From the NCBI GenBank assembly GCA_950295325.1, contig OX485803.1, forward strand, positions 55,877,554 through 55,941,553: a stretch of 64,000 nucleotides of DNA. The letters run 5' to 3'. Below are positions 1,151 through 64,000 of this stretch, piece by piece (within the stretch, counting starts at the first letter, position 1; the number at the start of each line of letters is the position of its first letter). The position numbers and the translations under genes were made by a program. The stretch is from Polytrichum commune. Lineage: Eukaryota; Streptophyta; Polytrichopsida; Polytrichales; Polytrichaceae. The notes beneath the pieces are model-generated. The model had not been told where the DNA came from and made no database searches. It saw only the letters and a program-made list of their open reading frames with translations.

Positions 1151-3204
1151 TGTATGCGCAGGAACATCCTTGTTGGCCATAGCCTTGTTAGTAAGTGAAG
1201 TTGTGGGTCCATGAATTTGACCGAACCACGAAACAGGAAACAAACAAAGCCTCAACGTGGCTGTCAGCCTCACACATTGATGGATGGACATTCCCAGGCA
1301 CACAAGCACCAAATATTTGACAAGTGTTAGGCTCAGGAACGCTATAGAGTGGACCATTCCCAGCCGCTAAAAAATACAGCATCTGCCCACAAATCTTCCA
1401 CCAACAAGGTAGCTAGATAATACGGAAAACAGTGACAATAAGCTGATTCAACCGTAAAGAGTGGCTTGAAATTTGAGGGAGTAGAGGAAATCGTACTGCG
1501 GAATGCAAATTGTTTCATAATTTTATTTCATGTGAATGACTAGTTACATTGTCCCAAAAAAGGCAAGTAAATCAAATCCCCTGCTTGTATCGTAGACATG
1601 CTACTGACCGTGCATATTTGGCTTTCAAATGGTTTTCCACAAGGTGGGTTAAACCTTTTTTAAACTTTTTTTAAAATTTGTAATTAGTAAATGAGATGAG
1701 AGTATTGTGGTAAAATGAAATGACAATTGTATTTGAAAAGTTGTAACCTTTCTACAATCAAGTTCACAACTATATGCATCAATGTGTGATCAATGTGCCA
1801 TTCACTAACCATGCATGTTAGGTTTCACTAAAGGAGCTACAAATGTTGCCCTCTTCTTTGTAGGCATAGGAAATTGATGAGGTTTTGATATTGTCCTTTT
1901 GATTTGTGTAGCCATTTTCTTCTCAAGTTGTTGTTGAATTTTTGCTTCTTTTTTGGCCTTGGCAAGGTATGCTCTTTTCATCTTCATCAAATTGCTACAT
2001 CTACACCTTGCTATGTGATTTGACTGAAGGAAACTCCATGATGAGTGTGAGTTGACAGTGATGTTTTAGATCATTGGCGCGGTCATGATTGAGTTTGAGA
2101 GACATCGGACGGTTGAGATTGCATGTGATATAATTTTACGGCCGAGATTAAAAGTACACGGTAAGTGGCATGGTGGAGTATCGTGACATGCACGGTAAGT
2201 GGTGCTGCACGGTCAGTAGCATGTCTACAATATAGTAGAGTCTCCCTTACTTGAGCATCAAGATACCCTACTCTGCATACGAACACATATAAATCAGTTA
2301 ACAATATGACACCCAGAAGTGATTGCAATTGGTTGTGAGAGACAACACATATTCACCAATCCCTGCATGCCACCTATCATTACATCCTTTTGGGACCACC
2401 ACTTTTACAACTAACCATTTTGGGTCCACACAAAGAGTCGTTCTACCCCTAGTCTAGTGCACCATAGTGGCCTATCACCGCTTTCGGTTTCCCCTACCTT
2501 ATCACCCATTTCCTAGATCTGGCAGCATGGAGCTTACCAACCTACCCACCCGCTACCAGGGCGGGCGGGCGGGCGGTAGGTAGGTACCTCCTCAGCGTCC
2601 TCAAACGTTGGGAGAACAAGGTTGTACGTCTGCCGTACGACACCGCCTCATTCGTACCTGGCCCCTACTACCTACCCCAGGTGGACCTACACACCTACAC
2701 ACCTACCTACCTGCCTGCCTTAACTTCCTCATCCACTTTCGGATGGATGCGTGCCTGCCGACCCCCCTTCGAGCGGACGACATTCATCCCAGATGCGGTC
2801 CTGATCCTACGTAGCATTTCTAAAAGGAGGAAGCTCACTTGCTGCTTAGTGCCGCTTCATGTGGCGAGTGGTTCTGGGTCCCACAATGTGATACTTTACC
2901 GAGAATGGGCCCCACTCTGATATTTGTGGTGGACCCACGGTGTGACACTATCTCTTGGTGGTGGGTCCCACTGTGTGGAACTAAATATTAATAATAGGCC
3001 CCATCATGTGCCTACTACAGTAACCTGTGGGTCTTTTTTTTTTTTTGGGGGGGGGGGGATGTGTGTTTTGTTTAATGCGGATTATTCACCCGCCACCAGT
3101 TGCTTCTAAGCATGGAAGTTTTTCGCAAACTTCAATGCATGACCCATGTTGGTTGAGGTCGTCGAATTTGGCTCCGGGAAGACCCGAGGCTTGTGGGAAG
3201 CAAT
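1151..3204. other. Intergenic DNA with simple-sequence tracts
   Basis: No convincing gene. Bases 2560-2590 hold GGGC repeats running into GGTAGG repeats. Bases 2665-2725 hold CCTACC/CCTGCC repeats that are partly complementary to them, so the two could pair. A T-run followed by a G-run lies at about 3032-3058. Short open frames here have no recognisable motif. Confidence 0.5.
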
Positions 3205-12937: not shown

Positions 12938-15280
12938 ATGGTGAGGTTACGGAGTGGTGGTGGTGTTGTTGATGACACCGAGACAGCAGAATTGAGTAGC
13001 GATGAGATTGTGAAAGAAGGGAAGAGAAAGAAAGAAAGAAAAAAAGATCTGAGCAGTGGTGAGATTGGGAGCAAAAGTCGAGATGAAGGATGCGAGGAAC
13101 CGGATCATGGCAGAAACAAAGGCACGGATGCCAGGCCAAGTTCCGTGGATCGGTCAAAAGTGAAGCAATTCAGGTCAACTTTCGAAGGAAGTGCTGAGGA
13201 GGGCCGTCTAGTGAGCTTCAAACCCTAAATTAAGAGATTGTACTTGATATGCAATCTTAGGCCCCCTTTACACTAGATGTGTTGAGAGCTCCAAGATTGA
13301 GAGCTTGAAGAAAGGAGCCTTTCTCATAATTTGGGGGAAACGAGCCCTCCTACACATGCTTGTTTGTTCAAGTCCAATTTACACTAGAGCCTAGTTCAAC
13401 TTGAGAGCTTCAAATTTATACTGAGATTACAACGCGTAGATGACATCTTGACGGATCCCATGTGGAATAAGTACGACAAGCTCTTGGTTGGTCATTTTTG
13501 ACAAGCTCTCAGTTGAAATCCTAAGCTACCTCATAGAGGTCGCTTCGCTTAGGAATGTCGAGAGTTTGAGCTCTCGTTTTGTGCACCCCAAGTCAAAAGA
13601 TGGGCTTTCAAGCATACTTTGTTGACTACCACTCCCCCCTTGATATGTATCTCACTTTGAGCATGGCCACAAACTTTACACTTGCTCAAACTATTCAGAG
13701 CTTCGAGATTGGTCAAGCTCTCAATAGTTGAACTTTGGATCAAAGCCCGAAAATCTGCAAGTATGAGCTCTCAACATGGGGAGCTTGAGTATAAAGGGGA
13801 CAGTTCTGTCATTTGGTCTTTGTGCTCATGAAATTGATGATTTATGTTGATATTATGCAGAGTATTGAAATTGGTTGAGTTTGTGCAATGCTATTGCACA
13901 AGCTTACAAGACATGGTCATTCTTTCGAACCTTCCAACCCTAAATTGGTCGTACTCGATACGCAGTCTTATGTCGTCTGGTGATTTTTCTCATGGAATTA
14001 ATCCTTTGTGGGCATATAATGCACAGAGTATCTCAATTGAGTTTGTGCAATGCCATTGCACAAGCTTACAAGACATGGTGATGCTTCGGGGGGAAAGTGG
14101 CCGCCGGTGGCCTGTGAAGTGCTCATTGGTAAGTGCACCTGCTGGTGCTTTTAGGGGGGCCTTCACAGAGGGGTGGAAGCTCTTCGTGGAAGACAATGAA
14201 CTCCAGGTTGGAGATACCCTAATCTTCAACCTTCTTGGCGAAGCTTCTTTCTTTATAGTGCGAATCCCTACAATTAGCCCTCAGAGTATTTCCCCTGAGC
14301 ATACACTTGCAGTACGTTGTGATGAATCAGAGCCACTGGCGTATACCGAGAACTCCCTGCTAGAAGATGAAATGGTTGAACCCCCCCACTTGGAGGCGCA
14401 ATATGCTCAATTTGCCATGACCCTCCCACTAACTTCATCCTTGTCCTCGCCATATCCATACCTGGTGAGTTCATGTTTATCCAGAGCTCAATTTTTGACA
14501 TGTTATGGAAGATTGATCTCGTGCAGTTCTTCCTAGACTACACTCAGCAGTTTCATTCAAAAGGCAACCGTTGATGCTTATAGATCCAAGAGGGCAAATA
14601 TGGGCCTAAAGATGTTGAGTGGAGGTGTTTAAGGTTACTTTATGTTGATAAATACTAAATGCTACCCATTGCTCAACCGTATTTGGTTCCCCGTCAGAAC
14701 ATAGGTATATATGTAAATAGAAAAACTAAGAGATGTAGGCTCATGTAGTTTAACTATATTGAAAAATGTATCACAGAGATCTTGTCACCATCCTTGTTAC
14801 ATATGACTCGATTTCACTTCCTCTTTGTTGGAGGTTGTGTTGAATATAGTTTCAATCTCACAGACCCAAGTACAATTAGACCTTGATACCTGTTGGGGGC
14901 TTGTAATTACTACTGCGTAAACCATAGAATGTTTACCATTGCCTTTTTCTTGTTCAAGATTCTTCAATTTTAATTTTTAATTTCCCTGATCTGCCTCCTT
15001 TTTTTAAGTTGATGATCTTGTCTTGTGATGATTCCCAAACCAGATGCTCCCCAGAGAATTTATCCACCAATATGGAAGAACTTTACCCAGACTTGTGCAT
15101 CTCCGAGGGCCCAGGTCTGGCAAGGTTTGGCCTGTGAAGTACACTGGAAGGCCAGCAAAGAACAGAGGATGCTTCACACGAGGGTGGAAGAATTTCGTGA
15201 CTGACAACTCGCTAAAAAAGGGAGATCATCTCACCTTCACTCTTACCAAAGCATCTCACTTTGCAGTCACCTACCATTGA
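12938..15280 (+). CDS. REM-like B3 domain transcription factor, three exons seen
   Basis: Plant B3 proteins bind DNA in the nucleus. Proposed exons are 12938-13210, 14027-14464 and 15044-15280, all joined in phase 0, giving 315 residues. Exon 1 encodes a charged linker (KRKKERKK) and the first strand of a B3 domain (VKQFRSTFEG). Exon 2 completes that domain, with signature GWKLFVEDNELQVGDTLIF, and starts another (FAMTLPL). Exon 3 completes the second domain (GWKNFVTDNSLKKGDHLTF) and ends at TGA. Donors are CTA|GTGAGC and CTG|GTGAGT; acceptors are GCACAG and AACCAG. The paralogue at 59054-61349 has the same intron sites plus one more upstream B3 domain, so this copy may be 5'-truncated or have a distant first exon. 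The start codon is uncertain. The target genes are unknown. Confidence 0.75.
13219..14085 (+). repeat. Tandem duplication of intron 1 end plus exon 2 start in the B3 gene
   Basis: A segment running from CCCTAAATT through the acceptor into exon 2 occurs twice: once as 13219-13260 plus 13804-13930 (split by a MITE) and once as 13934-14085. Both copies carry an acceptor ATGCAG or GCACAG and the coding block for EFVQC. The first copy has a TGA stop shortly after its acceptor, so it is a dead pseudo-exon and the second copy is the one that fits the reading frame. Confidence 0.65.
13261..13803. mobile_element. MITE inside B3 gene intron 1
   Basis: The left end is GGCCCCCTTTACACTAG and then GTTGAGAGCTC. 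The right end is GAGCTCTCAACAT and then AGTATAAAGGGGAC, the degenerate inverse. It interrupts the duplicated intron segment, so it inserted after (or into one copy of) the duplication. It is non-coding, about 540 bp, and rich in GAGCTT motifs. Confidence 0.6.
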
Positions 15281-52748: not shown

Positions 52749-54895
52749 GTGCACAACTGCGATCTGGGCCATGGAAGCGTCCCAACGATTGATGGATAGA
52801 GCGGGCAACTGTGGCCATTCCACCTCTGGACAGGGGTCACGGGACCCGACAAGTGCGTCAATTGGCGTCAGAGGTAGTCGGAGACACCAGGGACGTGGCT
52901 CTCCCTGGAGCTACTATTGGGTTGCGGGCGGGGCTAGGTCTTTTCTAGTTCCTAGTTCCCAACTGAAGGTGGGAAATGGGTCTGAAATGGTTACTAGCCT
53001 ACTTTGCCTAGGATTTGAAGCGTGGGATCACCACAAGATCGTTTGCAAATTTGGATGAAGATGCAATGTTTGGGGACATTTTTGGGGCATAATCAGTCAA
53101 AATCCAAGTGTTCCCAAGTTTGACCGGTTACACGATGTGATATGTTGGGTTTTAACATATTTATTTGAAGTATATTATTTTGATTCAATCAAGGGTATGG
53201 GTCCTTTTCCCGAGTCGTGAACTTCAACTGGTTATTTCTCAAACTCAACCATTTCATCTATAACTAGCGGTCGGTTCTCCCCGTTCATTGTCGAGAAGGT
53301 TAGCAAATTTGGATCAAAGGGTGTAGCATCTTCCCTATAATTTTCGGAGCTCGTATGAATATGTCATTCATTGTCAGAATGAAAATCCTCATGCTTATCC
53401 CTAGGCCCAATAGTCAACATAATCGAGGGGACTACATGACCATCTAATGAGCACGAGAAAGTTTACTTTAACAACGAATAAGATAATTCATATGATCTGC
53501 AAAAATTATGAGGGAAGTTGCTGGCCTTAAATTTAGATTTGCTAACCATCTTATGCTAATTGCATGTTTCATGATATGTAGATGCAACCGAGATGTAAAC
53601 CCAAAGTGGGTCTATGGAGCATGAATTCACACACCATGTATTCAATCAATTAGTTCTCATTGAATCTGTGGGGTGTCTTATTAGGAAAATCTTTGCCACT
53701 TCCTGAACTTTTGTCATTCATTATCTGTTGTAACAATGTGGATTCCATTAAGCACTTCTCTCTGTTCAAATCTACATGTATGGGAAAGTGTCAATGGGAC
53801 CTTAAATGTCCGTTTGAAATGTGTAGAGGCACTTGTTGCAGCTTGATTTATTGCCCCATAGCTTTGCGAAGAATGCTGGTATATAGGCACATTTTTGGGA
53901 GATACTCAAATGCAATGTGCATTTATTAAAGTGCAAAAAAAATAAAATGTATGGCACTTGAAAAACTTTGTGCTAGGTTAAGTAGTTCTGTAAGTACAGC
54001 TTCTTTACACATGATGGCTTTTAGGAAGCATTTCACCAAATTAGACTGCGACTTGAATTAAGATCATGCACCACAAGTTGTACTTTGTTTGTGGAACTTG
54101 CAGTTTCAGTTCGTAGTCCACTGAAGAATATTTGGAGCCAAATAGCAGTATTACTCATAGCATACACTCTGTCCTGCTAGACTTTGGGTAAAACTATGCA
54201 TATGGACGTGGTTGAAGGCAAATTAAACTGAAAGGCCCCTTAGCAATGGAACTACTTCAATCTGGAAATCTTCACACTCAATTGTATAGACATCTTGAAC
54301 GCAAGGTCTGGGCATTCAGAATGTTGATTGTGGGGTTTGTCTCTGCAAATTTACGAGGTTTATGCCTTTGAAGGATGTGCTCCTATTGTTTCTAGGCACA
54401 TCCGTAGGTTGGACAAATATCAATTGCTAACAAACATGAAATTGTCTATTTTATTAGGTTGGTTGATGACTCTTGTACAGTAGATGTCAAGTCCATTGGC
54501 GCATGTATGTGTAGGAACGGTTGAATGAATTTGAGTTAATTTATCCACTCTTTGATACGATTTCAAGTCTAAAATGTTGAAAGTGGTCTGGTATGCAAGG
54601 GTGTGTCTTGAGAACGCTTAATTGGTACTGTCCAGTTCCTTAGATTGTCAATTAACATAGTTCACACATTAATTTATCAGCCTTTGTGTACAAGCCTTAG
54701 CGAAGGACAAGCATGCTAGTTGGAAAATGTAACCCTTTGAGATCCATTTCCACCTTCAGTTGGGAACTAGAAAAGACATGACTCCGCCTGCAATCCAATG
54801 TTAGCTAGAGGGAGAACTTCATCTCCTCTCCATCAATGGTGGCGGGCGGTCATTGGGACGCTTCCATGGTCCATATTGCAGCTGCGCTTGGGCTC
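52749..54895. mobile_element. Element with long degenerate terminal inverted repeats
   Basis: The left arm (52749-52995) contains GGGCCATGGAAGCGTCCCAA and, further in, TTTTCTAGTTCC...CCCAACTGAAGGTGGGAAATG. The right arm (54735-54895) contains their inverse complements in the mirrored order. Long inverted ends around about 1.7 kb of non-transposase sequence fit a non-autonomous MULE-like element. Its interior holds a nested foldback repeat (53213-53560) and a 90-codon frame (53660-53929) that I do not recognise. Confidence 0.6.
53213..53560. repeat. Nested foldback repeat
   Basis: Bases 53213-53290 are an inverted fragment of the GATCGGGGAGA MITE family. Next, 53293-53407 (GGTTAGCAAATT ... 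GGAGCTCGTATGA) and 53440-53556 (its inverse) form a foldback with a short loop. The same half-unit is dispersed elsewhere in the window. Confidence 0.55.
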
Positions 54896-54903
54896 ATGAG
54901 GCG

Positions 54904-55254
54904 CACTACACTAAATAGGTAGATTAGTGTTGGAAACACTAATAGTCGACGGAAACGCTAAATGTAAATTGTCTCTATAGTGTTAGAACACTAAATGTCA
55001 ACTCTAACACTATTTGTATCAAGTAGTAACTTTAAATATTTACATGAGCGCATTTAGTGTTAGATGATATTTTGTAAATCTTGGAATGAAGAATTGAAGG
55101 AAGAAGAATATGAGAACCTCGTAAAAGGTATAATTTGTTCAAACCCTATTCAAACACTAATTGTAATATCAGTTGAAAATTAGTGTTTTAGGTAACTATT
55201 GCATCTAACACTAATCTTCATCTAACACTAATCTACCTATTTATTAGTGTAGTG
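54904..55254. mobile_element. MITE with CACTACACTAAATA ends
   Basis: It starts CACTACACTAAATAGGTAGA, continues TTAGTGTT, and ends with the near-perfect inverse (AACACTAATCTACCTATTTA, TTAGTGTAGTG). It is 351 bp with several internal ACACTAA palindromes and is non-coding. It lies about 320 bp upstream of the NOP10 start codon. Confidence 0.75.
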
Positions 55255-55574
55255 AGAGGGTGGTTTTGGCGAAAGAAAGGAAGGGAACCTAGGGTGGGAA
55301 CGCGGGAACTCCGAGGATCGTTCCGGTTAGACACCGGGGCGGGCACGGAAGCAAGGTCCCAGACCTAGGGCGACGCCGAACCTGCCCCGAACCAGGCACC
55401 GAGGAAGCCCTTCCTGCGGCGCCTTGTTGGAAGGTGCGGACTCCGGGACTCCATCTCCGCTCTATAACTGTCGGTCGCTCCTCTCCACTCACAAGCCATC
55501 GATCTGTGGCCTTCTTCGAGTCAGCGGGCGCTCCTGTGTTTCGCTTGGAGCGACGGGATTTCGGTTTTGCAGCG

Positions 55575-58374
55575 ATGTATCTCATGTATTACACAAACGA
55601 GAATGGCGACAAGGTGTACACTTTGAAGGTGAGGCGGCGATGTCGTGTCTTGATGTAGTTGTAGAGCGACGTGGGTTTGGAACAGAGACCAGAGGGCTCC
55701 GGGAAGCACCGATCTTATGTTTTTCATGTTGCACGGTGTTTTGCGTTTGGTTAGGGTTTGGAGAGTGCATTGGTGTGGCACGGGTTGGGGGCGATGTAAT
55801 TTTGCGGGAGAGTGAAACGGCGGGGGTTGGCACCCTTGGCGGGGTGTCGCCTTAGCAAGAAGGAGCGGCCATGCGCACAGTGTGTGTGCAGTGCGGTCCG
55901 TAGGATCCTTTGCTAACGTCGGAGATGAGTGGGTTTATGTGATGGCGCTCCTGTGCACTTGTGTAGAGGAGAGGGTCTCCATGAACTAAGGTGACATATT
56001 CCATTGCCCTGGGGAGCAGCGTCGCTGCCATTACCCTGTGGGACAGACCATGTCAGCTACATAATGGGAAGATTACATGGTGTGTGAATTAGGGTTGAGG
56101 AGTCTGTAGAGTAGAGAGCAGCGTTATCGGCGGAGGGCGTCGTCCTTGGCGGGGCGAGTCCTTAGCAAGGAGGAGCGGCCATGCACACACTTGTTGCGTG
56201 CAGTGCGGTCCGTAGAGTCGTATGCTAACGTCGGAGATTGGGTCGTTCATGCGACGGCGCTGTTATGTACTCGGGTGCATAGGAGACGTCCCCATGAATG
56301 AAAGCGCTATATTCCATAGCCCTGGGGAGCAGCGTCGCTGCTATTACCCCGTGGGACAGACCATGCCACTTACATCACTGAGAGACGTGGATTAGGCTTT
56401 GACATTTGGTGTTTAGGTCGTGGAAGTTTATAGGGTTTATGGTTTAGGAAGAGTGAGGGCGCGCTGGTAAGGACGGGGGTCGGCCCCCTGGGCGGGGTGC
56501 AACAAGGAGCGGCCATGTACATTTATGTGCGTTGCGGTGCGTAGGATCCTTCGCTAACGTCCGAGGGGAGTAGGTTCGTGTGATGGCGCTCTCGTGCCTC
56601 TGTACAGGAGATGTCTCCACGCACCGAGGTGACATATTCCATAGCTCTGGGGAGCAGCGTCGCTGCCATTACCATGTGGGACAGACCATGTCACTTTCAT
56701 GCCATTTCAAGGCTGCAGCATATTGTGTCCTAAGGTTTGGGGTTCATAGGATAAAGAGATGTGAACGACGGAGGGTGTCGTCCTTGGCGGGGCGGCCTCT
56801 GAGCAGTAAAGAGCGGCCAGAACACACTTGTGCGTTCAGTGCGGTCCGTAGAGTCGATTGCTAACGTCGGAGATTGGGTCGTTCATGTGACGGCGCTGTT
56901 ATGTGCTTGGGTGCATAGGAGACGCCTCCGTGAACGAAAGAGACATATTCCATAGCCCTGGGGAGCAGCGTCGTTGCCATTACCCTGTGGGACAGACCAT
57001 GCCACTTACATTACCAGAAATAAGTTTCATGATACGTAGGGTTGTAGGGTTACTGGACGTTTGATAATGTGTACCGACGGGGGTTGGCACCCTTGGCGGG
57101 GTGTGGCCCCGGCAATAAGGAGCGGCCATGTACACAGTAGCGTGTGCGATTCGGTCCGTAGGATCCTTTGCTAACGTCGCAGATGAATAGGTTCGTGTGA
57201 TGGCGCTGTTGCGCACTCGTGTGCAAGAGAGGTCTCCGTGAGCCAAGGTGACATATTCCATTGCCCTGGGGAGCAGCGTCGTTGCCATTACCCTGTGGGA
57301 CAGACCATGCCACTTATATAATCAGACGTAAATTTTGTTGAAACGTAGGGGTGTAGGGTTATTGTCTTTATTGGACGTTTGTTTTGTATATCGACGGGGG
57401 TTGGCACCCTTGGCGGGGTGTGGCCCCGGCAATAAGGAGCGGCCATGCACACAGTAGCGTGTGCGGTGCGGTCCGTAGGATCCTTTGCTAACGTCGCAGA
57501 TGAATTGGTTCGTGTGACGGCGCTGTTGCGCACTTGTGTGCAAGAGAGGTCTCCGTGAGCCAAGGTGACATATTCCATTGCCCTGGGGAGCAGCGTCGTT
57601 GCCATTACCCTGTGGGACAGACCATGCCACTTATATAATCAGACGTAAATTTTATCGAAACGTAGGGGTGTAGGGTTATTGTGTTAATTGGACAATTGAT
57701 AATGTATACCGACGGGGGTTGGCACCCTTGGCGGGGTGTGGCCCCGGCAATAAGGAGCGGCCATGTACACAGTAGTGTGTACGGTGCGGTCCGTAGAATC
57801 TTTCGCTAACGTCGCAGATGAATTGGTTTGTGTGATGGCGCTGTTGCGCACTTGTGTGCAAGAGAGGTCTCCGTGAGCCAAGTTGACATATTCCATTGCC
57901 CTGGGGAGCAGCGTCGTTGCCATTACCCTGTGGGACAGACCATGTCCGCTACACCTCGAAACAAGATATGCGAATCGTATTAGGAATTATAAAATGCATG
58001 TGAAGTTGAGTCTCTTAAGTAGAAGTGGTGACCTAAACCTTGCCTTATCTTCTGTTTCGCTGAAATGTCGGGTGTTGTCTGTGTAACAGAAGGAGACACC
58101 AACGGAAGCGCCTACGCTGTCGGCCCATCCAGGTACATTTCAGGAGTTGTTGCACGTTGACATATCGTCTGGTATTCATTTGAATGGATGTGAAATGTAA
58201 CGAACCCGTTCAAGAATGGTTTGATGTCGTGGATTTAATGCACAGCGCATGACTGATACGATGCCTGTGTTTGCAGCACGATTTTCACCTGACGACAAAT
58301 TCTCCAAGCATCGGATCATCTGCAAGAAGAGGTTCAACCTGCTGCCAACACAGCAACCACCTCACACCTATTGA
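55575..58374 (+). CDS. NOP10: NOP10, H/ACA ribonucleoprotein core subunit
   Basis: NOP10 is a small zinc-ribbon-derived protein. With dyskerin/CBF5, NHP2 and GAR1 it forms the core of H/ACA snoRNPs, which guide rRNA pseudouridylation and processing in the nucleolus and Cajal bodies. Exons are 55575-55628, 58090-58132 and 58277-58374; they encode 64 residues, the usual eukaryotic length. Exon 1 gives [18 protein letters not shown], exon 2 [14 protein letters not shown] and exon 3 [20 protein letters not shown] and [22 protein letters not shown] and KKRF...TQQP are hallmark NOP10 blocks. Splice sites are AAG|GTGAGG...AACAG|AAG and CAG|GTACAT...TTGCAG|CA. The frame extends upstream of 55575, but the family starts at MYL. 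Intron 1 is very long for so small a gene and carries seven snoRNA units. Confidence 0.92.
55826..56064 (+). ncRNA. U17/snR30-type H/ACA snoRNA, copy 1
   Basis: U17/snR30 is an H/ACA snoRNA needed for early 18S rRNA cleavages rather than pseudouridylation. This 239-nt unit has ATATTCC (55996-56002), matching m1, and AGACCAT (56045-56051), one base from m2 (AAACCAU). Between them lies a hairpin tip with GCAGC-GTC-GCTGC. TGACAT (55993-55998) pairs fully with ATGTCA (56050-56055) below the motifs. ACA is at 56059-56061, so the end is placed at 56064. The 5' end is inferred from TTGG (55827-55830) pairing with CTAA (55986-55989). No exact ANANNA H box is seen. Confidence 0.82.
56139..56377 (+). 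ncRNA. U17/snR30-type H/ACA snoRNA, copy 2
   Basis: 239 nt. m1 ATATTCC is at 56309-56315, m2 AGACCAT at 56358-56364 and ACA at 56372-56374. The 5' closing stem TCGTCC (56140-56145) pairs with GAATGA (56296-56301), with one mismatch and one G-U. The base changes relative to copies 5-7 occur on both sides of the stem. The loop is GCAGC-GTC-GCTGC. Confidence 0.82.
56479..56702 (+). ncRNA. U17/snR30-type H/ACA snoRNA, copy 3 (ACA box altered)
   Basis: 224 nt, shorter in the 5' domain. m1 ATATTCC is at 56634-56640 and m2 AGACCAT at 56683-56689. The closing stem TCGG (56480-56483) pairs with CCGA (56624-56627). The box reads TCA (56697-56699) instead of ACA, and CCATG replaces CCCTG in the 3' arm. 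It may be poorly processed or a pseudogene. Confidence 0.7.
56777..57013 (+). ncRNA. U17/snR30-type H/ACA snoRNA, copy 4
   Basis: 237 nt. m1 ATATTCC is at 56945-56951, m2 AGACCAT at 56994-57000 and ACA at 57008-57010. TCGTCC (56778-56783) pairs with GAACGA (56932-56937) with one mismatch. It is closest in sequence to copy 2. The tip is GCAGC-GTC-GTTGC, with a G-U pair in place of a Watson-Crick pair. Confidence 0.82.
57083..57321 (+). ncRNA. U17/snR30-type H/ACA snoRNA, copy 5 (AUA box)
   Basis: 239 nt. m1 ATATTCC is at 57253-57259 and m2 AGACCAT at 57302-57308. The box is ATA (57316-57318); AUA is a known variant of ACA. TTGGC (57084-57088) pairs perfectly with GCCAA (57242-57246). An inner 5' hairpin pairs ACAC with GTGT around AGTAGC. 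Confidence 0.8.
57400..57638 (+). ncRNA. U17/snR30-type H/ACA snoRNA, copy 6 (AUA box)
   Basis: 239 nt and nearly identical to copy 5, including the flanking spacer. m1 ATATTCC is at 57570-57576, m2 AGACCAT at 57619-57625 and ATA at 57633-57635. TTGGC (57401-57405) pairs with GCCAA (57558-57562). Confidence 0.8.
57718..57956 (+). ncRNA. U17/snR30-type H/ACA snoRNA, copy 7
   Basis: 239 nt, close to copies 5 and 6 but with a canonical ACA at 57951-57953. m1 ATATTCC is at 57888-57894 and m2 AGACCAT at 57937-57943. TTGGC (57719-57723) pairs with GCCAA (57877-57881). It ends 133 bp before the intron acceptor, so it is the copy nearest exon 2. Confidence 0.82.
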
Positions 58375-58976
58375 GAAATCTGGGGAAGATGGCAGCACAT
58401 CTTGCACAGTAGCCCTCGATTAGTTAGTGTTGTGGGTAGGAGAACAGTTGTACATAGTTAATTACGTCTGGACGCCGGCTCAAGGCTGAAGACAGGACCT
58501 GACATGTAGGAATGAAAGGCAGGCGGTTTTGTCCGCCTTAATGTAACTTACTTCACTCGTTTATGGAAAGCACGATAACCTCACGGAAGCAGTTTAAAAG
58601 ACGGTGATGCATGTTTGTCATCCTCTTTTGTGCAAATGATTGAGGGGGAGTCTTTTGGTTTGTGTGTGATGGCACATGGTCTGTGTGCGCCCCAACACTC
58701 GCATCCAGAGTTCGATGGCATCAAAATAGACTTATGTGAAACAATCATGTCATGTTGCAAACTCCTCCGTGATCATGTATGGGTTGAAAACATTCTTAAC
58801 TTCACTTGCGTAGAATACCGTCTTGATTACTTCACATATTGATTCGGTTTGAAGTTATATCCATAGTCATGCAAACCACAACATGGAGCACTGGAAATTG
58901 TCTCTCAGCTTGCATTCCTTTATCTTCGAAACTATTGTCTTGTGTAAAGAGAGTATGGAATAATATCCACTTCAAA
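58375..58976. other. NOP10 3' flank
   Basis: Presumed 3' UTR and spacer between the convergent NOP10 (+) and B3 (-) genes. The frame 58615-58842 is not recognised. No other gene is supported. Confidence 0.45.
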
Positions 58977-58998
58977 TTTAGGGTTTAGCGTTTAGGGT
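58977..58998 (+). repeat. Interstitial plant telomere-type repeat
   Basis: TTTAGGG, TTTAGCG and TTTAGGG stand head to tail. It is three units long, too short for a telomere. It may be a telo-box-like element or a repair scar. Confidence 0.7.
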
Positions 58999-59053
58999 TC
59001 ATAATGTTGTGGTTTTCTTATCAAGGCGTGATGATTTTCTTCATCATTAACTC

Positions 59054-61349
59054 TCACCTTTTAGTTACTGTAAAGCAGGATGGGCCAGTGAGAGTGAAGA
59101 GCATATCATCTCCTAAACGGAAATGGTTTGCAGTTATGAACTCCCTCCAACCTTTGGAGAAAGATCCTCTTCCTCTACTTGGTGCAGACGTGAACCTCAC
59201 TGACCGGGGCTCGGTATCCTTGGGCGCTCGCAGATGCACAAATGTCGCTAAGCTGCTTCCGTATTGCTGAACGAAGCTATTTGGGATATGCTGGTGACAT
59301 TAATTTCATCAAGGACAAGCGTTGAACTCATTATTTCTAGAGCCAAGATGAATATCTGCTGAAATCTCAGAAAAATTACTATTAATTTTCCTTCGTGCTT
59401 CCTTTGATCACTAATTACACTCTATTGCTTTACAAGGAGGATCTGGCATGTTCCCTTCGAGCATAGTCATAGGCAAGCATGCTTAGAGACAAAAGAAAAT
59501 CCAAACTTCAATACATTTGTCAGACGCCACTTAAGAAGGCTACACCGTTTATGGTATTTGGAGTTACGCAGGGCTATAATTTCTCATTATAGATTTCATT
59601 TGTTACCAACCAAAAGGTTGTATGAACAAAATACAACATAAATGACTTTGTAAAAAGTTGCATTCTTAGCAAAAACTTATAGCATACTGCGTAACTCCGG
59701 GTAGTAAGTGACCCCAAATACCATAACGGTGTAGTGATTTGACTAAGGTGTGTCTACCTTACTCAGCAATCACTGAAAACTTCTGGGCGACAGACACAAC
59801 ATAGATTCTTGAATGAAGTGCATCCCAGTTTCATAAATCATTGTGCACGTCCATGATTGGAGGGCAATTTTCACTCACCAAGAATGGATATGGTGCACCA
59901 AGCGAGGAAGAGCGCGTCATGGTCACAGAAAATTGCACAGCATGTAAGTTTTTGGATGGCCTCCTTGTACACTTGGTGGCTGCTCTTGCTGTTTCTGTTT
60001 GTTCTACTGGCTTATAATTTCCAGAGCATGAAGTTGGGGGTATTCGCACGACGAAAAATGAGTCTTGGGTTGAAAGGTTGAACAGCAATGTGTCTCCTTT
60101 GCGGAGCTCGTTGTCTTCCGCAAAGGATCTCCAGCCACCCGTGCACTCCACCCTCCCACCAACACCGGGAAGAATGGTTAAGGAGCATTTGACTGGCCTG
60201 TGATGGCCACTCTCTCCTCGAAGTGTGACCGTGTCTACTAAGCTTATGCCGTGGAATCGTACGAAGTCCAATGGAACAGTCTTTGCATCCACCACACCCG
60301 CCAAAACTGGACCCATTACCACTTGAATGTGAACTATTAAGGTAAACCAAGCCTAACTCAGTTACTTATCTTAATCGGACACCTATATTTGCACGGTGTG
60401 TGGTTAGGTATAAATCTACGAATGGGCATACAAAAAGAAACTTGTGCAAAAGAGATTGGACCTATGTGCTCAAAACTTGTTAACTATTATTCCAGGTTCT
60501 AGTATAAACATCTGGTTTAGTGCAGCCCGCACTATTCGTAATCGGCCCACATGAATTGTCTTCAAATCACGGGGTGGCAAGTAGAGAGGATGTCACTGAC
60601 ACTCGTGCCCCACGACAAGTCACAAATACCACTCTAGATTACAGTGAACACCAATTTCAATGCGACATAAAATCAGATGTTTAGCGTAGTCAGCATAATT
60701 GGGAGGGGGACCTCTATGATCATTGTAGAAGGTAGAGAATGTCCACTTTGATAATGTATAAGATATTCATACGAGCTCCAAATATTAAGAGGAAAATAGC
60801 GACAGATTTGCAGTGAAATGTATGGCTGAGGATCAATAGCAGGCACAGGTGAGTAATGCTTACCAAAACTGCCCGATCAGTGCTCCCTTCCAAAATACAC
60901 CTGAATTGCTTCACCCTCGACATCAACTTCTCTGTCAACTCTGGCTTTCTGGGAGGCGGAGGCACTTCGACGTCTCTGGCATTGAAAATTTCTGAACGTG
61001 ACCCTTCGCCGGAAATATTTGAAGAGATATTTCCTATGTTTTGAGTTTGGTGTCGCGAACATGTGACCCTGGAATTTCCTCTGTTGTCAAACATGTAGAC
61101 GTCGAATGTGGACATGCCAGTCAACACAAAGATCAGCCAGTCCCCCATTTGTAAACCACTTGAAGCCATGAATGACCTCCATGCCCCGTCCGACGAAATT
61201 TTGACCCTGTAACTCATTCCCGATTGCCAGTACACACAGAGGCGAATCTCCCATTGCTGACACTTCTCGCGCCCGGCTCCTCGAAGTTGAATATTTGTGA
61301 ATTCTTGTATGCTATCCGCATGCCTCTGCACGAAATGCGAAGGAATTTC
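59054..61349 (-). CDS. REM-like B3 transcription factor with three B3 domains (5' partial)
   Basis: Probable nuclear DNA-binding protein. Exons on the - strand, in transcript order: 61349-60864, 60280-59879 and 59290-59054 (stop), all phase 0, at least 374 residues. The first visible exon begins EIPSHFVQRH and completes B3 domain 1 (AWRSFMASSGLQMGDWLIF). After a linker (VPPPPRKPELTEK) it starts domain 2 (VKQFRCILEG). Exon 2 completes it (GWRSFAEDNELRKGDTLLF) and starts domain 3 (FSVTMTR). Exon 3 completes that (GWREFITANHFRLGDDMLF). Every intron falls just before the IPxxF-type strand. A further 5' exon should exist beyond 61349, because domain 1 lacks its first strand. The linker before VKQF in the + strand paralogue is shorter and more basic. 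Conserved GW...GD cores suggest an intact DNA-binding fold. Confidence 0.78.
59540..59734. mobile_element. MITE in intron 2 of the - strand B3 gene
   Basis: The left end, CTACACCGTTTATGGTATTTGG, is mirrored at the right by CCAAATACCATAACGGTGTAG. A second inverted pair is GTTACGCAG / CTGCGTAAC. The element is 195 bp and non-coding. Confidence 0.7.
60281..60863 (-). other. Intron 1 of the - strand B3 gene with a repeat fragment
   Basis: 583-bp intron. Bases 60735-60800 hold an inverted fragment of the GGTTAGCAAATT repeat (CACTTTGATAATG, ATTCATACGAGCTCC). The donor is TTG|GTAAGC; the acceptor is the weaker GCAAAG|ACT. Confidence 0.55.
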
Positions 61350-61749
61350 CTGGTCACAGTGGCGGCGGCAGCTGCTCTGTCAGTTGCATACCATGCTTGG
61401 GAGTCGCACACTACTAATCCTCACGTGATCAGCACACACAAAAAACACACACACATTTATCTGCACTCCAAAATCATGTCCAGCCTTCACAAAATATAAG
61501 GTAGATGGGATTCGACTAGTTATTTTTCCTGACTAGACCAGTTCTCCTAGGATATGGATATCAAACTCGCGATGATTTTGTATGAGATGGTTAGCGAATC
61601 CAAAGTAAGGCTGTAGCCACTTTCCTCATATTTGTTGGAGCTCATTCGAATATCTTATTCACTATCAAAGTGATAAGACTCGTGCTCATTTTTACAGTCT
61701 AGAATGGTCATCATATTTTGAGCACGCAGTCCAATCTCTTTTAAATACA
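61350..61749. other. Region upstream of the - strand B3 exons
   Basis: It includes a copy of the GGTTAGCAAATT repeat (about 61590-61680), directly adjoining the long inverted arm that begins at 61750. The missing first exon of the B3 gene was not found here. Confidence 0.4.
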
Positions 61750-64000
61750 TGGTTTTTTGGAATCCGTTCTTGGACCCACACCAAACCACATACCACTCGA
61801 ATATAGGTATTCGATTAAGATAAGTGACCGAATTGGGCAGGTCTACCTTAGAATTTGAAGGCCCAACTATAGCTTTAGCTTGAGCTGGGCTTGAGCTCAA
61901 GCTCAAGTTTTAAAGTTTGGTTTGCCGAAGTAAAAGAATCTGGACCCTTCCTTACATTTATTAACACACAACATATAGCCATCCCATTTATTTACATATT
62001 GTTGTATAAATTTTGAACTCATTGCAGCATCGGAGTGTGTGTTTGTTTGTTGTTTTGCAGGTAGGCAAGACGTGAAGATTGAATGTGGCTGCCGCATTGC
62101 ACTTCAAAATATAGATTTAGATGCCATATGACCACATGTTACATCAATTACTCACCACATGACTACTTAAACAACAGTTAGTTGCCATTTTACTAGGCAT
62201 GATTTTCTAGGAGTAGCCAAAATACCATAGTGCTCGGCAAATTGACGCCCGCTTTTAACTATATTTCAATAAAGACCATCGCCAACATTTTTCCACATAT
62301 TGTTTATGGTAGTAGCCAAATGTATGCAATTTTGTGAGCATTGTTGCCAAAAAATATAGCCCTAAACTCAACCTAATCGCCACTATTGAAAAATTTAATG
62401 CTTGTCCTATAGCCAGATGATCATGTTCCAAAAAAACAAAAAAAAAAGGGGCTGGCATGAACATGCGATCAGCTGACAGTACTTGATTGCAGATTAATTG
62501 AGGACAGCTCTAATGACGGCCCAATACTTCAACATGTCCCTTCAGACTAGTACTTACTAAAACTGTAATGAGTGAATTAAAAACTACAGTTGTACGGTTA
62601 ATCATGCAAATTTTCTTAGCAAATGCAATATCGCCACAAACTGGAGTACCTGTATTTAGTCCTGAGCATCAACAAAAGGCTTTTACAGAAGTTGGGAATA
62701 TATGAAATGATTCATTTTGTGACGCAAAGGGGATACACAATCGCAGACATTTGATGTGCCGATTCAAGTTTGCCCTAAATTCAATCAAAATCGATGCATG
62801 ATCTGTACCAGCAGTTTGTCAGATCAATGAAGGTTGTGAACTTTGAAGCAGATCATTAGGTCTATGAGCCGTGATGAACCTGTTGTAAATGTAAAATTCA
62901 TTTCTATGGAATCAGAGCTGGAGTGATTGGAGTAACGGTAGCGCAAAAAATTGTAATTTGTGGTCGATGGAGGAGGTGATTCGGGGCTTGGGCAGCACTC
63001 CATATTTCGAGAGGATGATGAATCTTCGAGACGTGTGGCCGCAGTGCCGTCAGCTGGTAACCTTTTACTCTTCACCACCATTAATGTCTTGTGCCTGATT
63101 TCTCAAGTTTCGCATGATTCATCAAAGGAAGCACAACTAGGAGGATCTATCTGTACAGATTAATTCTGTGAAGAAAGCACCACTGTGTAGGAGCACCCAT
63201 ATATTCTTCTCTGTTAAAGGTTATGTCAAAAGGAAATTGTACCTTCTGTTTCCTGTGGAAATTCGAGATCGTGCAAATCTAACATGCATTCTTTTGAGTC
63301 TGTTGTGAAAGCAGATAAGACTTAAGTTTCCCGTGGGACGGAATTCTGAATATCCCGAAGGAAATATTTTGAATTCTCCTTGTGATGCAATAGATTATAT
63401 TATTAGGGATCAGAGGAATCACAAGGAGGATCTGTACAGATGAATCCTGTGATGCAAGCGGCGCTAGCACCACCCGTGAAGTCTGCTTTGTGAAGGGGCA
63501 TGTCAATAAGGAAGTAATATTGTTCTTCCTGTGGAAATTCGAGAACGTGCAAATCTAACATTCGAATTTATGTGTTGATTTATTTTGAGTGTAAATTTGT
63601 CTCAGACTGAGGAATAAGACAACTGAAAAAATTATATCTCTGGCACAGGCTCTCCTTCTGCGTTGATTCCTGACTTTTCACAGGAAAAATGACCCCTGTT
63701 GCTCGAAGGAAGCACGCCAGATCCTCCTTGTAAAGCAATAGGGTGTATAATTAGTGATCAAAGGAAGCACAAGGAAGCACCATTTTAGGCTCTTGTAAGG
63801 AAGGGTCCAGATTCTTTTACTTCGGCAAACCAAACTTTAAAACTTGAGCTTGAGCTCAAGCCCAGCTCAAGCTAAAGCTATAGTTGGGCCTTCAAATTCT
63901 AAGGTAGACCTGCCCAATTCGGTCACTTATCTTAATCGAATACCTATATTCGAGTGGTATGTGGTTTGGTGTGGGTCCAAGAACGGATTCCAAAAAACCA
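61750..64000. mobile_element. Element with perfect 207-bp inverted arms, cut by the window edge
   Basis: Bases 61750-61956 and 63794-64000 are exact inverse complements. The arms contain the palindromic run GAGCTTGAGCTCAAGC-type repeats. The right arm reaches the last base of the window, so the element may be longer. Its interior, 1,837 bp, has no transposase. It contains a tandem duplication (63117-63630) and an 85-codon - strand frame (62824-63081) with a Ser/Pro-rich stretch. Identical arms imply recent origin or gene conversion. Long inverted ends suggest a MULE-like or foldback class. Confidence 0.7.
63117..63630 (+). repeat. Tandem duplication with exon-like blocks
   Basis: Two units, offset about 300 bp, share AGGAGGATCT...CTGTACAGAT, a stretch encoding VKGYVKRKLYL (or VKGHVNKEVIL) then FPVEIRDRANL (or PVEIRERANL), and GTGCAAATCTAACAT. 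A third fragment at about 63698-63780 repeats the block coding PCxAI...II.DQR.HKE. The PVEI.ANL part faintly resembles the start of a B3 domain. Frames are broken, and the identity is not established. Confidence 0.4.

Follow-up and report, generated by a model that had tools for sequence, protein, structure and literature searches.

A tandem array of probable U17/snR30 small nucleolar RNA genes in the first intron of NOP10 in Polytrichum commune

The NOP10 locus and its intronic array

The stretch of the Polytrichum commune genome analysed here (assembly GCA_950295325.1, contig OX485803.1, positions 55,877,554 to 55,941,553; 64,000 nucleotides (nt), hereafter the window) carries a gene for Nop10, one of the core proteins of box H/ACA small nucleolar RNA (snoRNA) particles, and within the first intron of this gene seven tandem direct-repeat units which are very probably the genes for the plant's U17/snR30 snoRNA. 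U17/snR30 belongs to the box H/ACA class but, instead of guiding pseudouridylation, helps in the maturation of 18S ribosomal RNA (rRNA). The joined NOP10 exons, separated by GT-AG introns, encode a 64-aa protein with a match to the Pfam family Nop10p (E 2.1e-22), and the span of the array given in a preliminary description of this DNA, 55629-58089, is exactly intron 1. All units lie on the plus strand, which is the sense strand of NOP10, with core-to-core spacings of 313, 325, 311, 308, 317 and 318 bp between successive units. The preliminary description of seven similar sense-strand units inside this intron is thus borne out by spacing, strand and exon model (Table 1). Its estimate of the spacing (about 300-340 bp) fits the 308-325 bp found, while its unit size of 224-239 nt has to be revised to 233-251 nt, with gaps of 60-92 nt between units. 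The true ends of the units are uncertain because the 5' border was set by eye on the alignment, which is a judgement, and the 3' ends are inferred.

Table 1. Coordinates of NOP10 and the array units in the window. Unit scores are bits for R2, a model built from the seven units, whose own scores are therefore not independent.
Feature	Start	End	Strand	Description	Support
NOP10 exon 1	55575	55628	+	coding, 18 aa, followed by GTGAGG donor	exon model and Pfam match
NOP10 intron 1	55629	58089	+	array host, GT...AG	splice-site model
Unit u1, U17/snR30-like H/ACA RNA	55817	56064	+	m1 55996-56004; m2 56045-56051; H box AGAUGA; ACA	R2 263.3
Unit u2	56127	56377	+	m1 56309-56317; m2 56358-56364; no strict H box; ACA	R2 247.7
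Unit u3	56470	56702	+	m1 56634-56642; m2 56683-56689; no strict H box; UCA in place of ACA	R2 203.4
Unit u4	56765	57013	+	m1 56945-56953; m2 56994-57000; no strict H box; ACA	R2 252.2
Unit u5	57074	57321	+	m1 57253-57261; m2 57302-57308; H box AGAUGA; AUA	R2 284.8
Unit u6	57391	57638	+	m1 57570-57578; m2 57619-57625; H box AGAUGA; AUA	R2 289.5
Unit u7	57709	57956	+	m1 57888-57896; m2 57937-57943; H box AGAUGA; ACA	R2 278.8
NOP10 exon 2	58090	58132	+		exon model and Pfam match
NOP10 exon 3	58277	58374	+	includes stop	exon model and Pfam match

Two motifs, first noticed as ATATTCC and AGACCAT, are exact in all seven units: m1, AUAUUCCAU (DNA ATATTCCAT), and m2, AGACCAU (DNA AGACCAT). The tail box near the unit end likewise agrees with the preliminary description, with ACA in four units, AUA in two and UCA in one; AUA has been named as an alternative to the ACA tail box (PMC12218528; the papers cited here are drawn on in excerpt). 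A strict H box of the form ANANNA is present in the hinge of four units, each time as AGAUGA. Within the window, R1, a model of the 3' hairpin built from the seven units, matches these units only at E<=10. The motif pair is also rare outside the family, as the pattern ATATTCCAT-N25-50-AGACCATG has 21 matches in the 408-Mb genome assembly, 18 of which fall in family units and three in unrelated sequence, with one match for the reversed control.

Fold of the units

The seven units share a predicted fold that is preferred on the sense strand. The RNAalifold consensus energy is -141.6 kcal/mol in the sense orientation against -117.3 in antisense, which is 24 kcal/mol better, and compared with 200 column shuffles, which were not dinucleotide-preserving, its z-score is -6.8. 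In the consensus, two stems make up a closed 5' domain, and a single-stranded hinge leads from it to an internal hairpin and then to the 3' hairpin. This matches the layout of vertebrate U17, in which two 5' stems, the H box and an internal hairpin precede a 3' hairpin with m1 and m2 (PMC7601244). In the 3' hairpin, a pocket is formed with AUAUUCCAU on the 5' strand and AGACCAU on the other, 7 nt ahead of ACA. The distance from the GGG closing the upper stem to the ACA, AUA or UCA is 16 nt in all seven units, and the rule places the top of such a pocket 14-16 nt above the ACA box (PMC7601244). Part of the pocket is paired in the consensus (CAU with AUG); a version with an open pocket also fits, with 93.3% of cells paired.

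The pairing scheme extends over the whole unit, with 86 pairs in the seven-unit consensus and 95.3% of its 591 cells paired. Twelve pairs have changed on both sides, compared with 6.0±1.8 in shuffles, of which 1 in 500 was as high. When 29 family matches (21 distinct rows) are aligned, both sides have changed in 46 of 82 pairs as against 22.1±3.0 in shuffles (0 of 500 as high), in an alignment that was fitted to the model and so leans towards it and whose related sequences inflate covariation counts. None of the versions in which the 82-pair structure was slid along the alignment had more than 27 double-sided pairs, and the double-sided changes of this alignment fall in helices of all three domains. 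What had first been described as a pairing lower stem and a motif-flanked hairpin can be extended to a fold of the entire unit that is backed by compensatory changes.

Predicted pairing with 18S rRNA

Variation in m1 and m2 is matched among known systems by changes in their partner sites rm1 and rm2 in 18S rRNA, and m2 is AAACCAU in all 14 taxa of Table 1 in PMC7601244, in which the last base of m1 varies (UA, UG or UU). The m1 of the units described here ends in AU. An intact plant 18S gene was not found in the 408-Mb assembly with two patterns and a DNA probe, and intact ribosomal DNA (rDNA) may be absent from it. The 18S searches led to a full 18S on contig C22 (contigs are labelled C1-C6 and C22 here) and to degenerate fragments, and a 5.8S search led to C22 and to a decayed rDNA piece on C5. 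This latter piece (C5:7.94 Mb) surrounds the 5.8S with flanks resembling internal transcribed spacers and lies, as we presume from its look, within a SART1-like gene.

Three degenerate 18S-derived fragments, L013 (C5), L014 (C1) and L015 (C6), span expansion segment 6 (ES6). L014 reads GCATGGAATAAT...GTTGGTCTTC and in this stretch contains sequences exactly complementary to UAUUCCAU and AGACCA, the rm1 site preceding the rm2 site. Its ATGGAATA is followed 28 nt on by TGGTCT, and only 2 of 20,000 shuffles of the fragment contain such a pair 20-40 nt apart. The AGACCAU of the units fits the UGGUCU of L014 and L015 and does not fit L013. As all 14 listed taxa have AAACCAU and UGGUCU is found here, the A-to-G change in m2 fits a compensatory change. 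At these two sites the 18S of bryophytes resembles L014, and that of flowering plants differs.

This predicted pairing bears on the strongest of the alternatives, that the units are an ordinary box H/ACA pseudouridylation guide which was amplified in the intron and whose pocket resembles m1/m2 by chance. Such a guide would account for the H/ACA-like fold with its standard 14-16 nt spacing (PMC7601244), and intronic H/ACA candidates have been described in flowering plants (PMC12218528). It is nevertheless unlikely, as the two strands of the pocket that are conserved correspond to m1 and m2 and are correctly placed, and the extra hairpins match the description of vertebrate U17 (PMC7601244). In L014, moreover, the partners of the two strands are separate 18S stretches at a distance of 28 nt, which is not what is understood of a pseudouridylation pocket.

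Relatives elsewhere in the genome

A NOP10 protein search of the 408-Mb assembly yielded two genes, both on C1. The second is an inverted copy with eight units, with the three coding exons and the splice dinucleotides identical to those of the window gene, and the surroundings of the two copies are 97.7-99.5% identical. They form a large palindrome, of which one arm covers window positions 54120-61956 and the other runs from 63794 on into C1 (to C1:55949500), an inverted duplication of at least 7.7 kb that includes NOP10 and the array. The innermost arms seen, 61750-61956 and 63794-64000, are separated by 1837 nt.

Across the genome, the unit query matched 29 places among the best candidates scored: 15 in the two NOP10 introns, four at C1:37.63 Mb, four at C2:16.80 Mb and three at C4:25.25 Mb, the remaining three being core pieces of 41 nt on C3 and C1. 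The units at C1:37.63 Mb sit behind a diverged NOP10 exon 1, which is unlisted in the protein search, is 90% identical over 60 nt and ends at the exon border. It is followed by GGAG after AAG where the window has GTGAG, with a possible donor, CAG|GTGATG, 10 nt further on, and neither exon 2 nor exon 3 of NOP10 was seen within the next 4.5 kb. This third NOP10-linked locus may be a truncated gene or a non-coding host. The arrays on C2 and C4 are decaying relatives outside NOP10, since in the sequence read around them the NOP10 matches do not get below E 0.2.

Two further observations were made at these loci. In an Rfam scan at E<=1 of the six loci bearing relatives, the only matches were two overlapping box C/D families, SNORD33 and sn1502, below gathering; the SNORD33-like match lies at 2922-2999 (-) of L032, at C1:37.63 Mb just past the second unit, with 35 bits against a gathering threshold of 44. 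The three core pieces (L033, L034 and L035, at C3:10.99 Mb, C1:75.55 Mb and C1:0.94 Mb) belong to a dispersed sequence, identical among the three copies over the aligned 88 nt, which contains 41 nt of the snoRNA 3' hairpin without m1; this looks like the capture of a piece of the hairpin by a mobile element.

Both motifs are intact in 17 of 17 NOP10-linked units, made up of seven in the window, eight in the second NOP10 and two at the third locus. At the third locus, 164 of 382 positions outside the 57-nt core differ from the window consensus (43%, gaps counted), compared with 8 of 82 core positions outside the motifs and 0 of 32 in m1 and m2 (motifs against the outside of the core, Fisher 5e-8). 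By sequence comparison, m1 and m2 are thus more strongly conserved than the rest of the unit at this diverged locus. The C4 array keeps both motifs in none of the six units having the 3' hairpin, with 16 of 96 motif positions changed as against 428 of 1146 in the rest of the units (p 3e-5). As its motifs have changed less than the rest, this array seems to have been under constraint for a time before it decayed. On C2, both motifs are kept in two of three counted units, with 1 of 48 motif positions changed, so that motif constraint is not confined to the NOP10-linked copies. All of these p-values are descriptive, related copies not being independent. The mismatch counts do not include the eight units of the second NOP10, which are nearly the same as other units of the family; also left out of the motif counts were three R2 matches without the 3' hairpin (L031:3878 on C4, L030:3770 and L030:2033 on C2) and an R1 match to a cut-up unit with m1 intact and m2 broken (L030:3335 on C2), with which C2 would stand at two of four.

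The second alternative is that the array is a satellite of snoRNA origin, a tandem repeat that is selfish or has decayed and is now functionless. The decaying arrays on C2 and C4 and the three 41-nt core pieces on C3 and C1 speak for this, and the preliminary description had held that a repeat found widely outside NOP10 would tell against a snoRNA array; relatives outside NOP10 do exist, although they amount to just those two arrays and three pieces. A satellite is very improbable in view of the 17 of 17 NOP10-linked units that keep both motifs versus none of six on C4, the preferred sense-strand fold with its compensated pairs, and a unit query that found only the 29 places listed among the best candidates scored. 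Least probable of all is a structured element of the intron which acts in cis on the splicing or expression of NOP10, with no separate RNA being made. This would suit a strong structure in intron 1 of two intact gene copies, whereas the most conserved sequence is the predicted rRNA-binding pocket, snoRNA-like end boxes are present, and units persist at the locus where the 4.5 kb downstream of exon 1 showed neither exon 2 nor exon 3.

Among the neighbouring features, reading frames with B3 DNA-binding domains lie in the window at 13844-14536 (+) and 60720-61331 (-), the second below the Pfam cut-off. The first of them, the rDNA pieces, which look plant-like, and the sequence of NOP10 point to a plant origin of the DNA, presumably from a moss or another bryophyte.

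Proposed identification as U17/snR30

The assignment of the units to the U17/snR30 type, with a shifted m2, is well supported: the reading of the preliminary description has gained from the compensatory pairing, the U17 layout, the conservation of the motifs at a diverged locus and the complementarity to one degenerate 18S-derived fragment, L014.

Several results weigh against it. Rfam gave no match at gathering in the window and none at E<=10 among 4227 families in 55400-58500. The comparison proposed earlier, with the covariance models of the vertebrate U17/SNORA73/E1 family, which we take to be RF00045, and of snR30 (RF01271), therefore went partly against the claim, weakening membership in those models and not U17/snR30-like working. 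A genome-wide search with RF01271 also had no match and is uninformative, since its control gave none either. In the fold, the open-pocket 3' hairpin taken alone shows no significant covariation (55 of 500 shuffles), because its sequence is too conserved, and its lower stem is paired in 83% of cells. Folded singly, u1 and u5 resemble the consensus, and u2, u3, u4, u6 and u7 differ from it in part. The strict H box is confined to four of seven units and u3 has UCA for ACA. As regards the target, m2 is one base off every listed U17/snR30, and both complements are exact in only one of the three 18S-derived fragments, as in L015 TGGTCT is present while the rm1 part has been replaced, and L013 has one mismatch in each complement. 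Each fragment carries a degenerate 18S piece of about 500 nt with flanks that, by eye, are shared, which points to one dispersed element and not to functional 18S. The full 18S on C22 also contains both complement strings, and the match is therefore not specific to the plant; C22, whose 18S (L012) and 5.8S we assume to be nematode-like, is possibly a contaminant contig in the assembly. Some further negatives carry no weight either way. A search for the UTP23 sensor domain had no match, and neither had its control; a green-plant 18S string was not found in the collection genome_contigs, nor the unit core in viral_contigs, but these collections consist of prokaryotes and viruses.

Taking these points into account, we still hold it very probable that the units are intron-encoded genes for the U17/snR30 of this plant, with a presumed role in the maturation of 18S rRNA. 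In the mechanism proposed, the array would be transcribed within the NOP10 pre-mRNA and spliced out with intron 1, after which the excised intron would be cut between units and the ends trimmed to the H/ACA form. Each RNA would then be bound by the H/ACA core proteins, Nop10 among them, and in its 3' pocket m1 (UAUUCCAU) and m2 (AGACCA) would base-pair with rm1 and rm2 of ES6, the partner letters in the plant's own 18S being predicted as AUGGAAUA and UGGUCU. This pairing would permit the early cleavages of the pre-rRNA. From transcription, release and core-protein binding to the 18S role and the coupling of supply, these steps are what we infer beyond the DNA. Judging from the position of the array, one transcript may couple the supply of the NOP10 protein and of the RNA.

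Comparison with known systems

The units have in common with vertebrate U17 the four-hairpin layout, a 3' pocket with m1 and, but for one base, m2 at its base, the ACA-type tail box with, in four of the seven, a strict H box, the encoding in introns and the presence in multiple copies (PMC7601244). In contrast to vertebrate U17, m2 is AGACCAU and not AAACCAU, m1 ends in AU and not UA, there is no Rfam match, and seven to eight copies share a single intron, with NOP10 as host. The U17 of Xenopus lies in six introns of the S8 gene, and human U17HG is a non-coding host (PMC7601244). Yeast snR30 (RF01271) shares m1 and, but for one base, m2, as well as their position and the H/ACA class; that of S. 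cerevisiae is 606 nt long with a long 5' hairpin (PMC7601244), whereas the units here are without an RF01271 match. A protein gene of the H/ACA core that hosts several snoRNA copies is known from Drosophila minifly/Nop60b (PMC1821038). There, however, the host encodes the pseudouridine synthase, and the snoRNA, of the box C/D type, comes from introns at the 3' untranslated regions (PMC1821038), unlike the H/ACA-like units described here.

Among plants, a candidate for the same RNA is the Viridi-trans motif, compared here by its description: a long hairpin with a large bulge that holds very conserved elements, followed in half of the cases by ANANNA, in 119 green-plant species (PMC12218528). 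The tails found here (ACATAA, ACATCA, ACATTA and ATATAA) also fit ANANNA, and a difference is that many Viridi-trans copies lie near snoR21 and snoZ266 (PMC12218528). According to an excerpt of a 2021 study, U17/snR30 had not been identified in Arabidopsis thaliana. The terms snR30, U17 and SNORA73 are all absent from the main text of a survey of plant snoRNAs (PMC5122169), and in the excerpts seen of the openly licensed literature neither an snR30 from a land plant nor an array hosted by NOP10 was noticed.

A joint explanation can be offered tentatively, as one that is possible though we would not favour it as a whole. Land plants would have kept U17/snR30, which went unrecognised because m2 and the 18S site drifted together; in Polytrichum commune it would have become tied to NOP10 as this gene was duplicated, in the form of an intron array with many copies, so that one pre-mRNA supplies both core protein and RNA, and Viridi-trans may be its 3' hairpin.

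Significance

If the identification is true, a gap in the factors that make plant ribosomes would be filled and U17/snR30 would be shown to have been kept. A copy from a plant whose rRNA-binding motif has undergone a matched change would also be a query for finding U17/snR30 in other plants, and the matched change in m2 would constitute a natural test of the pairing between m1/m2 and rm1/rm2. With NOP10 as the host, the arrangement would be a simple way of tying the amount of a core protein to the amount of its RNA.

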